This document shows positions 58,149 to 64,000 of a stretch of DNA of 64,000 nucleotides, piece after piece. The first letter of the stretch is position 1, and each line of letters starts with the position of its first letter. The notes under the pieces are model-generated. The model was not told the DNA's origin. It worked only from the letters and a program-made list of their open reading frames with translations, and made no database searches. The position numbers and the translations under genes were made by a program. The stretch spans positions 11,957,777-12,021,776 of the forward strand of contig CM020619.1 of NCBI GenBank assembly GCA_009829735.1, given 5' to 3'. The DNA comes from Pyropia yezoensis. Taxonomy: Eukaryota > Rhodophyta > Bangiophyceae > Bangiales > Bangiaceae.

Positions 58149-59751
58149 CATATATTGCAAGTAGGTACAATACACGGTCTCTGTCTCGATTCTGCACTGA
58201 GTGGCTGAAGAACAGTCGGCCTCTCGGGCGAGGACCCCGTGCTTCTGACGCTCGAGTGGACGCTCGCGTGGAGGGCTGCCAACAACATCACGCAACCGAT
58301 GTCACTTCATGACACAGATACGCAGTTGTGCACGGTATGTGCATTTTCGTACAGTACCGTACGCGTCTCCTGTCACGTACTCGACCTCCGCTTTCCCATT
58401 TTTCGGATATGTACGTACAGTCAACACTTTTCTTTGTCATCCTCTCATGCTGATCTGACGACTGACCCGACTCTTGAACAGACGTAGGCTTCTATGTATC
58501 AACACTGCATGCCTCAGACGACACCTGCAGTCATGAAGCAGACAAGGCCCGTTCCTCGCGTCTCCCGCCAACGACGTTAGCCGTACAGTATATAAGTACA
58601 TACTTACAGTACGTCGGTGTGCGACGTGCTGTTGTGACCGGCACCCCCTCCTGCGCTGCACCCCCTGGCACCGGTCGCCAACCGCCCGCGTGGTTGTCCA
58701 TTGGGTGGCGGTCAGCAACCGACATGGACAGGGCCTCAGCCGCCATGCCAGCAATAGAGAACCATTGATTGTGCCCATAGGCTCGAGCTCCTCGTCCACG
58801 CGCGGTCCGCACGCGTGCCGCCGTGCGGGGCGCTGGCCGATGCGGTGGAGGCGACTCGTGTGGGCTACGCACGGAGAGGGCTGTGTACGGTGCGCCCTGC
58901 CCGCCCTTGAATCTTTTGGTGGGCAAGCAATACAGTATCCCATATTTATGCACGAAGACCGGCTGCGGTGTCCCATTCATGCAGTGCAGTTGTCGCCCAC
59001 GCGGTTGGACAGCGGCACGGCCCCAGCTCACTCCCTTGGCTCGCGTGGCTACATGATACGTACTGTGTGTACTGTATGTATGACCAGTACACCCGGTGGG
59101 TGGCAGGAAGCAAACAGAAAATGGGCATGCACCACCCCCCTGCCATTGCGTTCAGGGACGCTGCCCCTCTTCGTCCTCGACAGATTTGCTAGGGTGTCGC
59201 CGTGCGGGACTGCGGCCGGGTCCGTGGGTCTGGCTCGTCTGGCGAGCAAGTGGCGTGCGTGCTGAGCACGATGCGTCAGCCCACTCCAGAGCCGGTCTGT
59301 CAGAGAAAATTACACATCTCCCGTCCGGACTGTGGTATCCCGCCTGCGTGGCTTGACGGCGGCGCCGCTACGTCGACTGCTGGCGGCTGAAACGACTAGA
59401 GTACCGGCTGCTCTCATTTGACCATGGATAGGAGAGGCGGAGCGGGGGGGAGGAATCGACTGGGTTGGGCCATCCATTCGTTCGATTGCACTGGCGCAAC
59501 AGCTGTATTGTCCCCTCCGTGTGGAGTCCCCATGGCTCTCCTAACGCGGCGGCAGTGGCACATGGACCAGGCATGACGCGTTTCCCAGAAAGTGGATTCC
59601 AGGCGCGTCTCCTCCCAGGCGGCACCTCTTTCCCACACCTACACCGCCTTCCGCCCAGTCGCCGACGTCTGCCCAGACGCTGCCCTCTGCCCAAACGCCG
59701 CAGCCTTCCCCCGCGTGGCAGCCTCCCCACCTGTGAGGGTCGTGCCTATCC
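58149..59751. other. Intergenic region upstream of the subtilisin gene, rich in GTAC/ACAGTA motifs
   Basis: No gene is supported. It holds a cluster of palindromic GTAC/ACAGTA motifs: 58349-58362, 58411-58420, 58583-58613 (with TATATAAG inside) and about 59057-59085. They may be regulatory or remnants of a repeat. Confidence 0.45.
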
Positions 59752-59759
59752 TATATAAA
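59752..59759 (+). promoter_or_regulatory. TATA box of the subtilisin gene
   Basis: TATATAAA lies about 190 bp before ATG 59949, which would put the transcription start near 59785. The pyrimidine-rich stretch with CCCGCAG before the ATG could include a 5'-UTR intron end. Confidence 0.6.
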
Positions 59760-59948
59760 CGGGGCGAGGGCGACGGCAGACACCGACAAACGGCGCTCTT
59801 GCCCCAACCACAGCACCCACTCTCCCGCAGTGGCCGCGGGGTACGGACAGGGGGGTGCGTGTGCACCACGTTCTCGCAGCTCTGTCACCGACCCCCCACA
59901 CGTCCACCCCCACCTCTACCCGCAGGTGCGGAGCGCCGGCTGAGCGCG

Positions 59949-61622
59949 ATGGCGCGCCTGTCGGCCATTGCGGCGGCCGCGGCGGTCGCGATCACCACCA
60001 CCACCATCGCCGTGGCGGGCGTCACGGCCGAAGCCGCCTTGCCAGACGTCACGTCGCGGCCAGCGGCGGCACTGGGCGAGGCGGTACGTGACACGCGGCT
60101 GGTGGTTCTGTCCGAGACCTGTGGGGCTGGGTGCATGGCCCGCGTCAAGGCCCGCCTGGCCAGCCGCTGCGACAAGGTGCGGGAGCTCCGCAACCTCCGC
60201 ATGCTCACCGCCCGCTGCGCCGGGGCGTCGGCGGCAAGCACCACCACCGCGGCAGAGGAGATGATGGCGGATGACCCCGACGTGGAGGACGTCCTCCCCG
60301 ACTCGGTGGTGACGGCGTTCACGCCGGCAGTCAACGCTGCCGACGGTGGCCGCCGTGTCGCCGCGCCCGCAACCGCTCGTCAGGCGGGCGGCCGCTTCTG
60401 GGGCCTGGACCGCATCAACCAGTTTGCGTTGCCACTGGACGGGGACGTCTCCACGGCGGCGTGCTACCCGAGCGCCGGCGCCGGCGTCACCGTCTGGGTC
60501 ATTGACTCGGGGTGCACCACCAGCCACCCCGAGTTTGAGGGCCGCGCCACCACCGAGGCCGGCCCCGGCTCCCGCTTCCCGTCGGGCGCGGATGACAACA
60601 GCCACGGCTCCCACGTGGCCGGCACCGTCGGCGGCCGCCAGACGGGGGTGGCCAAGCGCGTGTCCCTGCGGTGTGTCAAAGTGCTGGACGCGCGGGGCAC
60701 CGGATCCAGCGCGGATATCGCCGCCGCCTTTGACGCCGTCGCCGGCGCCAAGGCGGCCAACCCGTCGGCCCGCATCATCCTGTCGGCGAGCCTCGGCGGG
60801 CCCGCCCGCGGCCGCCAGGACGCGACGACCGTTGCCGCGCGCCGTGCCTCGCAGGCGGGGGTGGTGACGATTGTGGCGGCGGGCAACGACGGCGGCGACG
60901 CGTGCGCCGTCTCCCCCGCGCAGGAGCCGAGCATCATGACGGTAGCCAACGCGGACCGCACCGACCGGCTGGCCCGGTCGTCCAACCGGGGGCGGTGCGT
61001 GGACGTGATCGCGCCGGGCACGGACATCCTGTCGGTGGATGGCAGCTCCCCCGGCGGGGGGCTCCGCACGTACAGTGGCACGTCCATGGCGGCCCCCCAC
61101 GTGGCGGGGGTGGCGGCGCTCATCCTGGGCGACGCCCCAGACGGCGGCCGCCTGACCACCGCCGACGTGCAGGCGCGGCTGACGGCGGGCGCGCCGCAGG
61201 TGGGGGGCTACCCCATGGCCTATGCAGGGGGGGGCGCCTGCACGGGAGACAACCCGCCTGCGCCCGCGCCGGGGCCGCCCGCGCCGGGGCCGCCCGCGCC
61301 TGGCCCTCCTGGGCCGAGGCCCCCTGCGCCGGCGCCTGCGCCGGGGCCGCCCGGTGACCCCTGCACGCCCGTCCCCCGCCGGGTCTGCCGCTGGGGCCCA
61401 GGCGGGCGCCTCCAGTGCCTCATCATTGTGGTGTGTGCCGAGACGGGCCGGCCGCCGGCGCCTGGGCGGGGGCGGCGTCGTGGGCCGCGGGCCGCGCCCG
61501 CACCTGGGGGTGCCCCCGCGCCGGCGGACGACTGCCTCCGCCGCTACTGCCGCCTCGACCGTCGTGGCCGCCCCGAGTGCCGCACGTTCAATGTGTGCGG
61601 CAGGATGGGGGGGCGTGCGTGA
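59949..61622 (+). CDS. Secreted subtilisin-like serine protease (S8, proteinase K type) with Pro-rich and Cys-repeat tail
   Basis: The product is 557 residues from ATG 59949. The signal peptide is [20 protein letters not shown] and following. A propeptide of the I9 type covers about residues 35-125 (it includes [20 protein letters not shown]). The catalytic domain starts near [10 protein letters not shown], with Asp in [15 protein letters not shown], His in [15 protein letters not shown], the oxyanion Asn in [12 protein letters not shown] and Ser in [17 protein letters not shown]. The residues fit proteinase K. After it come Pro/Ala/Gly repeats ([16 protein letters not shown]) like hydroxyproline-rich wall proteins. 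Two copies of a four-Cys motif follow: [18 protein letters not shown] and [16 protein letters not shown], each ending with another Cys. It is probably extracellular and wall-linked (inference). It is convergent with the carbonic anhydrase-Hint gene. Confidence 0.94.
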
Positions 61623-62639: not shown

Positions 62640-64000
62640 TCACACCCCCACCGCCGCCGTGGCCGCCGCCACCGCGGCGCGCAGCGCCTCGGCGGCGCGC
62701 CCGCCGTCACCATGAAAGGCGCGGATGCTCCCCCAGCCGCGGCGGTAGGCCCACGCGAGGGGTGCCAGCAGCCGCTCCGCCACGCCCGCCGGCAGGGCGG
62801 TGGTGAGGGTGCTCACCCGGAAGCCGTCAACGACCACGTCCACACCGTCTAGGACATGCGGCGCGTACAGGCCCGTGCCCATCACGTGGGTGACCGCCAC
62901 GACGGGGTCCGCGATGGTGGAGGTGGTGGTGGTGGTGGCGGCGGCGGTGGTTGCAGTGGGGGCGGTGGCGGTGGCAGCGCTGCCGTCACCCGCGGCACGC
63001 GGCGGGGGCACCCGCTCCAGCGTGTCGCCCACCCGCACGGCGCCGGCGGGCACCCGCGCGCCCGACGCGTAGATGAGGTGCCCCGCCGAGGCGGTGAGCG
63101 CCCCCCCCGACGCGGTGGTCAGCCGCACAAACGGGTGGCGGCCGGTGGGCAGCCTGTGGGACCACATGAAGAGCGGGGAGGTGGCGCCCGCCGCGGCGCC
63201 CGTCACCACCTCCGCACCAGTGGCCACGTCTGCGAGCGCCACCGCCCGCCCGTCGGGGCGCCACACGGTGGAGGTGCCGGGGAAGCACGTGGGGTTGACC
63301 ACCACCTCGGCCGACGGCTCGGCGCCGGCGCCGGGGCCGTCGCCGCCCGGCGCCGCGGAGGTGGGCGCGGGCGCCGCCGGCGGCTCGGCCGGCGGGGCGG
63401 GGGGGGAGTGCGGCGGCTCGGCCGGCGGGGCGGGGGGGGAGTGCGGCGGCTCGCCGGCGGGCGGCTCTGGCGCCGCCGACGGGGCGCCGCCGACCATATT
63501 CCCCGCCGGCCCGTAGCAGGTGATCTTGCGCCCGTTGGTCGGCTGCAGCGGCCGGTTGTTGCCCCGCTCGTCCAGGCCCGTCTCTTGGGTGCGGTACTCG
63601 CGGAAGCGGTCCACCTGCTCCTGCGTGACGGGCTGAGCGCTCATCTCCATGAACCAGGCGAGCTCCTCTGAGCATGGCGGGGTGGTGAGGGAGCCCCCCC
63701 ACTGGCAAAAGCCCGACTCGGGGCGCTCCACCGTCCCCCACTCGACGCCCGTGATGCCGACGGTGCTGTTGGGGGCGCCCCCCTGGGCGTCCCCTTGCGC
63801 GTCGAGCAGGCGGGTGAGGAGCAGGTTGGGGGTGGAGGACAGCTCAAACAGCACGCTCACCACCGCGATCCGGTCGTGGGGCACCCCGGGGGCAATGTGC
63901 ACAAAGTGGAGCTCCAGCGGGAAGGTCCGCCCATTCACCTGGTGCTCTGCAGGCGCGTGGGCGTGCACGTTGACCAGGCTGTAGGTGGCAAACTGCCACT
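62640..64000 (-). CDS. Alpha-carbonic anhydrase fused to a Hedgehog-type Hint domain (5' end beyond window)
   Basis: The reading frame enters at the window end and stops at 62640, giving about 452 residues; the N-terminus lies outside. The first part is the C-terminal half of an alpha-carbonic anhydrase (CO2 to bicarbonate). Zinc His residues are in VNVHAHAPAEHQVNG and FPLELHFVHIAPG, the family signature is WGGSLTTPPCSEELAWF, and the fold ends with RKITCYGP. A Pro-rich linker with repeated EPPHSPPAPPA follows. Next is a Hint domain: catalytic Cys in PTCFPGTSTVWRPDG, conserved His in LTASAGHLIYASG, and the Hedgehog-like ending GLYAPHVLDGVDVVVDG. Hint domains self-cleave at the Cys and, in Hedgehog, attach cholesterol to the upstream part. 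Cleavage or lipid attachment of the enzyme is therefore likely, but inferred. No comparable fusion is known to me. Confidence 0.88.
   Translation of the reverse strand, partial: WQFATYSLVNVHAHAPAEHQVNGRTFPLELHFVHIAPGVPHDRIAVVSVLFELSSTPNLLLTRLLDAQGDAQGGAPNSTVGITGVEWGTVERPESGFCQWGGSLTTPPCSEELAWFMEMSAQPVTQEQVDRFREYRTQETGLDERGNNRPLQPTNGRKITCYGPAGNMVGGAPSAAPEPPAGEPPHSPPAPPAEPPHSPPAPPAEPPAAPAPTSAAPGGDGPGAGAEPSAEVVVNPTCFPGTSTVWRPDGRAVALADVATGAEVVTGAAAGATSPLFMWSHRLPTGRHPFVRLTTASGGALTASAGHLIYASGARVPAGAVRVGDTLERVPPPRAAGDGSAATATAPTATTAAATTTTTSTIADPVVAVTHVMGTGLYAPHVLDGVDVVVDGFRVSTLTTALPAGVAERLLAPLAWAYRRGWGSIRAFHGDGGRAAEALRAAVAAATAAVGV

Follow-up and report, generated by a model that had tools for sequence, protein, structure and literature searches.

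What might an alpha-carbonic anhydrase (CA) gain from a self-processing domain at its C-terminus? The question arises at one end of a 64,000-nucleotide stretch of Pyropia yezoensis DNA (C2:11957777-12021776 of a 107.5 Mb genome; hereafter the window), where the first-pass annotation had described a single frame holding an alpha-CA, a Pro-rich linker and a Hint domain. This description was borne out. The frame is read from the minus strand and continues past the end of the window to a start Met at window-equivalent positions 64404-64406, about 406 bases beyond. In the 6.5 kb around the window end (L017) it is open for 772 codons, and from the first Met it encodes a protein of 588 residues that consists, from N- to C-terminus, of a signal-like start, the alpha-CA, the Pro-rich linker and a Hog-type Hint. 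By a simple hydropathy rule, the N-terminus (MAVPAAPPPRRNHPGRPGRRRLLTATAAATVAAVAAITTVAAAPA...) is signal-peptide-like. The profile search that had been suggested for the translation returned PF00194 (E 2.3e-27, residues 66-297) and PF01079 (E 1.3e-12, residues 369-550) as the sole Pfam families in the 588-residue protein, each above its cut-off; Pfam recognised neither a domain C-terminal to the Hint nor an N-terminal Hedge signalling domain. The coordinates are collected in Table 1.

Table 1. Elements of the CA-Hint gene in window coordinates
Element	Positions	Strand	Basis or remark
CA-Hint gene, in-window part	62640..64000	-	stop codon 62640-62642; frame exits the window at 64000
Alpha-carbonic anhydrase domain, in-window part	63516..64000	-	PF00194; whole domain (66-297) begins outside the window
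Pro/Ala-rich linker, residues 301-373	63288..63506	-	33% Pro
Hint domain, residues 369-550	62757..63302	-	PF01079, 1.3e-12
Cys374, equivalent to Cys1 / C258 of Drosophila Hedgehog; predicted thioester former	63285..63287	-	Hint alignments
His417, at the Asp303 (D46) position of Drosophila Hedgehog	63156..63158	-	family alignments
His443, motif B (S-x-x-H), at the H329 position of Hedgehog	63078..63080	-	Hint alignment
C-terminal region past the Hint core, residues 541-588 and stop	62640..62786	-	LLAPL start aligned to Hedgehog sterol helix 1

To place the fusion among known proteins, we searched 5.8 billion proteins by sequence and by profile, scoring being limited in both searches to the 8000 candidates that shared most words with the query. 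Both domains were present in 10 of the 30 matches to the sequence search, and the same 10 recurred among the 35 matches to the profile search. Three of these ten outside clusters come from Pyropia vietnamensis (MMPV_004974, which is partial, MMPV_007914 and MMPV_000425). MMPV_004974 is 80% identical to the window protein over 532 residues spanning both domains, an agreement that led us to reject the idea of a frame arising by chance in GC-rich DNA. The linker is poorly conserved between the two proteins except for its last 15 residues, directly before Cys374, in which they do not differ. The P. yezoensis genome itself holds two further frames with both domains, L056 (C2:5582693-5583919) and L058 (C2:382249-383292, within the region C2:381900-384900), giving an aligned set of 13 fusion proteins (three own copies and ten outside clusters). 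The Cys and the His, whose loss in close relatives had been named as telling against the proposal, are both kept in all 13, as is the second Hint His. Judged from these alignments, the CA-Hint fusion is real and conserved.

The domain match and the active-site residues both identify the N-terminal half as an alpha-CA. The PF00194 match covers profile positions 2-252 of 254, and the closest solved structures are 4c3t, 8dpc and 1kop, which we take to be bacterial CAs. Alignment to 4c3t and 8dpc located the zinc motifs that had been read from the sequence: H148, H150 and H167 are present, together with Glu154 and Thr241. Going by human CA II, the three His are the zinc ligands, with Glu154 corresponding to Glu106 and Thr241 to the gate residue Thr199. 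All three zinc His are kept in 12 of the 13 aligned fusion proteins. The exception is L058, which carries Ala and Gln in place of two of them and retains intact Hint catalytic residues; since two zinc His are lost, its CA cargo is probably non-catalytic.

We next characterised the Hint half, using an alignment of 51 Hints (41 from this genome and 10 homologues; L055, which has no Cys block, was left out) and a further 20 Hints obtained with a red-algal query, some of them near kin of the own frames and therefore not a random sample. A profile of the 41 own Hints matched Drosophila Hedgehog (6td6, 6tyy, 1at0) at 3.9e-24, with an alignment that runs through the first helix of the sterol region; the best non-Hedgehog chain reached 2.2e-3. 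In the Hedgehog-like block seen at first reading, GLYAP occupies residues 512-516 and VVVDG residues 524-528, and the end of the domain is of Hedgehog rather than intein type. An intein was rejected, given the difference between these two scores and the fact that residues 374-588 contain no His-Asn and are followed by no C-extein. By profile and motif comparison, then, the Hint half is of the Hedgehog (Hog) type. It shares with metazoan Hedgehog (1at0, 6tyy, 6td6) Cys1, the T/S-x-x-H, G-x-x-x-P and VVDG/VVN blocks and a stretch that aligns with sterol helix 1, as well as the organisation of a one-frame precursor with a signal-like start. It differs from metazoan Hedgehog in its cargo, a CA instead of Hedge, and at three positions: Asp303 is replaced by His, the motif-J Cys by Thr and the Gly at -1 by Thr.

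Catalytic residues are invariant across the aligned Hints. The proposed nucleophile of PTCFPGTSTV proved to be Cys374 and the conserved His of SAGHLIY to be His443, and both Cys1 and the motif-B His are kept in all 71 aligned Hints (51 + 20), the excluded L055 lacking the Cys block. Motif B reads S440-A-G-H443 in the window protein; across the alignment its first position is Ser in 29 of 51 and Thr in 22 of 51, and its last is His in 51 of 51. The position of Hedgehog Asp303 is occupied by His throughout (51/51 and 20/20; H417 here), and H417 aligns with the Asp of wild-type Hedgehog in 1at0 and with the His of the mutant chain 6tyy. Asp303 is reported as the general base that activates cholesterol in Hedgehog (excerpts of PMC13060885 and PMC9163320). 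According to the available part of PMC9163320, structure (RMSD 0.4 A), pKa and activity are preserved in the engineered D303H protein, which additionally accepts coprostanol and epicoprostanol; its activity on a wider sterol range is likewise described in the part of PMC8529194 consulted. Other features associated with sterol transfer depart from Hedgehog. The motif-J position is Thr533 here and Cys in only 2 of 51 Hints, and residue -1, Thr here, is Gly in none of the 51. In the first sterol helix (APxR), described as important in Hedgehog in a portion of PMC7906309, Pro549 is kept in 46 of 51 Hints and the Arg in 39 of 51, but the window copy has Ala551. No sequence match to the second sterol-region helix was recognised in the red-algal Hints.

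Based on these features, we propose that the CA-Hint precursor is secreted and processed once by its Hog-type Hint. Cys374, with His443 and Ser440, would convert the predicted scissile bond, Thr373-Cys374, from a peptide bond to a thioester in the secretory pathway. His417, corresponding in nature to the base engineered into Hedgehog as D303H, would then activate a hydroxyl group bound by the lipid-region helices at the C-terminus, the donor being most likely a membrane sterol. The products would be a 34 kDa CA plus linker bearing a C-terminal lipid ester and a leftover 21 kDa Hint, and the lipid-bearing CA would be retained at the outer surface of the plasma membrane or at the wall for HCO3-/CO2 conversion. 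The expected size of the released enzyme, first put at about 30 kDa, thus becomes 34 kDa for residues 46-373, with the end of the signal guessed, and 27 kDa for the CA domain alone; the unprocessed protein would be about 60 kDa. We assign a probability of roughly 0.5 to this main reading, in which the Hint cuts itself and passes the 34 kDa CA to a lipid alcohol that is probably a sterol. Self-cleavage as such is likely by analogy with Hedgehog, an estimate obtained by summing the three readings in which the precursor is cut, and a lipid adduct on the CA has about an even chance. We place less weight on lipid attachment, on which lipid it would be and on a surface location than on cleavage; the Hog tail may be a means of fixing a secreted CA to the algal cell surface.

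Several observations bear on secretion and on the lipid. By the same crude hydropathy rule, 36 of 42 Hint frames have a signal-like start, L044 being a doubtful case, against 24 of the 225 other long frames at these loci that served as controls; this difference counts in favour of the proposed mechanism. Cholesterol has been found in Pyropia tenera (PMC8234223, in part), the P. yezoensis genome contains two strong matches to the sterol-reductase family ERG4/ERG24, and three Patched-family frames of 976-1164 codons lie at C2:2783401, C1:40899075 and C3:3090850. A six-frame search of the P. yezoensis genome that ignored introns gave no match to PIG-M, PIG-A, GAA1 or PIG-U, whereas the ALG3 control was found at 1.4e-59; the control genomes for the GPI families were exclusively prokaryotic, and GAA1 matched in none of them. 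A glycosyltransferase survey, as far as its accessible part goes, likewise reports that Rhodophyta apparently lack the synthesis of GPI anchors (PMC3797821). The presence of cholesterol, sterol-reductase matches and Patched frames, together with the failure to find the GPI families, makes a lipid anchor plausible. Our literature search found nothing that joins GPI anchors, hedgehog and red algae.

The main rival of the lipid adduct is hydrolytic release, in which the thioester is merely hydrolysed after self-cutting to leave a soluble external CA without lipid. Cys1 and the motif-B His, which are needed for the thioester, are invariant in the aligned Hints. The departures from Hedgehog in features of sterol transfer (Asp303, the motif-J Cys, the Gly at -1 and, in the window copy, the helix-1 Arg) point the same way; indeed the motif-J Thr, the Thr at -1 and Ala551 must be weighed against lipid transfer by analogy with Hedgehog. 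Secreted alpha-CAs have, moreover, been published for P. yezoensis (PMC7423979, in part). However, the residue that replaces Asp303 is the same His in 71 of 71 Hints, and that His supports sterol transfer when engineered into Hedgehog; conservation also extends beyond the Hint core, as Pro549 illustrates, and plain hydrolysis would have no need of that stretch. We consider hydrolytic release a minority prospect, about half as probable as lipid transfer.

A different acceptor would lead to a different product. If the thioester were passed to a nucleophile of the wall, be it a polysaccharide hydroxyl or a protein amine, the CA would become covalently fixed in the extracellular matrix. This outcome draws on the cargo of the other own Hint frames, which is matrix-like in several cases (fasciclin, sub-threshold DOMON, Asp-rich and His/Gly-rich repeats), and on the description of non-Hedgehog Hog proteins as being of unknown function in the available part of PMC13353863. 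It is opposed by the alignment of the post-core stretch with the lipid-facing helix of Hedgehog, and we regard it as improbable.

We then surveyed what else the Hint family carries. Manual grouping of the 84 own Hint matches gave about 76 loci, a lower bound; 42 of the 76 were read, and the frames of 41 of these (all except L055) were scanned with Pfam for cargo. The 41 frames comprised three with CA, one with imelysin (L036) and one with a sub-threshold DOMON (L037), and the scan credited no cargo family to the remaining frames. We set aside TrbE and Cnd1_N in L038, which were just over the cut-off with no single passing stretch, and the weak sub-threshold matches to FG-GAP, EF-hand and Extensin in L027, L031 and L039. 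Elsewhere, a fasciclin domain shares a 476-codon frame with a Hint (C2:16951090-16952091, minus strand), and the outside protein P0054 has the arrangement fasciclin-fasciclin-Hint. In land plants, fasciclin proteins are textbook examples of GPI anchoring. Since only 1 of the 17 fasciclin frames in the P. yezoensis genome is paired in frame with a listed Hint, the Hint is not a general anchor, and we rejected a universal anchoring role. Long Asp/Asn-rich or His/Gly repeats lie upstream of the Hint in L022, L025, L026 and L039, which is suggestive of matrix proteins.

A broader form of the proposal is that the Bangiales, seemingly GPI-less, use their large secreted Hog family as a built-in, one-shot device for C-terminal lipid anchoring of extracellular cargo, with the His base tuned to wider sterols or alcohols. 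We offer this generalisation tentatively, as more doubtful than the reading of the single gene. If it held, the cargo would include carbonic anhydrase, fasciclin, DOMON-like and imelysin domains, and external carbon capture would rest partly on Hedgehog chemistry.

Alternatively, the Hint could be inert and serve only as a C-terminal structural module. Thr in place of Gly at -1 would be in keeping with this, as would the existence of a gene copy that dispenses with the Hint. The copy in question, L006 (C2:29314971, in the region C2:29313471-29317166), is a 1172-base stretch 97% identical to the window gene that opens upstream of the gene's start and breaks off in the linker; it is without the Hint, has 14 extra bases inserted in its signal region and reads as a partial gene copy. 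Retention of the Cys and both His in every fusion protein, including L058 with its missing zinc ligands, speaks against an inert domain, and we consider this explanation quite unlikely.

The trees of the two halves fit a common history. A phylogeny of the Hint part, which had been suggested as a check, placed the 13 fused Hints in one clade of the 51-Hint tree (96/89). The CA tree comprised the CAs of the 13 fusion proteins, L006, five further CAs of the same genome and 7 from outside, chosen from the sequence and profile searches; the fused CAs and the truncated L006 formed one clade apart from the five Hint-less own CAs, with a support (94/89) just below the star threshold of the tool and with L058 on a long branch whose placement is less sure. 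Because both half trees give one clade, a single fusion followed by duplication would be enough to explain the distribution; several independent fusions were rejected on the same ground. At the DNA level the two domains share one frame in the 13 fusion proteins, and not in P0004 and P0032, which come from a relative with a 93% identical CA, lose the frame between the domains and terminate, out of frame, within the Hint. These two are proteins from assembled reads, each on one short contig, with 8 and 2 member sequences. As the break falls in the repetitive Pro-rich linker, a weak spot for short-read assembly, assembly collapse is the likely cause, a real variant being the alternative. Although P0004 and P0032 could be taken as a sign of two genes or an assembly join, with domains continuous in DNA and separated in the mature mRNA, three paralogous own frames and ten outside clusters hold both domains in frame, and the two broken frames fail in that repetitive linker; we consider this the least probable of the explanations.

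Hint domains in red algae were indeed already known, as the first-pass annotation noted. Burglin 2008 (PMC2362128) describes the same domain, including two P. yezoensis Hog ORFs, and the replacement of the motif-J Cys in red-algal Hog; the word 'carbonic' is absent from that article, and the portion available to us assigns no function to the upstream regions and contains no discussion of Asp303. Cyanidiophyceae kelch-Hint and Hog proteins (PMC9812998, PMC13353863) similarly join cargo, a Thr/Pro/Ala-rich linker and a Hint, and differ in that, within the accessible text, the cargo is kelch or absent and no enzyme of known chemistry is involved. Carbonic anhydrase and the Hint domain are both mentioned without being linked in the available part of PMC12803021, and they co-occur with fusion in PMC9303669. 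As far as we have searched, the novelty lies in a CA as cargo and in the fixed His at the general-base position; both the domain and its pairing with an upstream cargo had been described before.

For the physiology, Wang et al. 2020 (PMC7423979, in the part available) list 15 alpha-CAs in P. yezoensis, among which the CA-Hint gene is presumably included, and predict five CA isoforms to be extracellular. Extracellular location was confirmed in tobacco for alphaCA5 and alphaCA9 and was also reached by alphaCA14. In conchocelis the authors measured external CA activity and suggested that it aids in drawing carbon from shell; this activity and the secreted alpha-CAs also speak for the proposed mechanism. 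The article nowhere mentions 'Hedgehog' and has 'hint' solely within 'hints'. The proposed product would resemble a familiar animal enzyme in having a C-terminal lipid, with a different anchor chemistry. That enzyme, vertebrate carbonic anhydrase IV, is a GPI-anchored external alpha-CA.

These results point to a natural Hog family with His at the general-base position of Hedgehog, for which the literature examined has an engineered mutant only. They also describe a Hog domain joined to an enzyme with an assayable product, and the role of non-animal Hog domains, a question since 2008, therefore becomes directly testable. For a lineage apparently without GPI anchors, and for a farmed seaweed, they suggest a route for fixing proteins at the surface, including for inorganic carbon uptake.

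Two minor observations concern the surroundings of the gene and of its CA family. Convergent with the CA-Hint gene, on the plus strand at window positions 59592-61622, lies a subtilisin-type protease (Peptidase_S8, 5.5e-37) that also has a Pro-rich linker and a Cys-containing tail. In the genome as a whole, 35 of the 58 PF00194 matches are short frames, mostly of about 82 residues, dispersed over C1, C2 and C3, whose match begins at profile position 192 or 193 and takes in just the final quarter. One copy among the 35 was read, L059 (C3:807400-808900), and the 3′ end of an alpha-CA of the L001/L003 type seems to be carried by a repeat.
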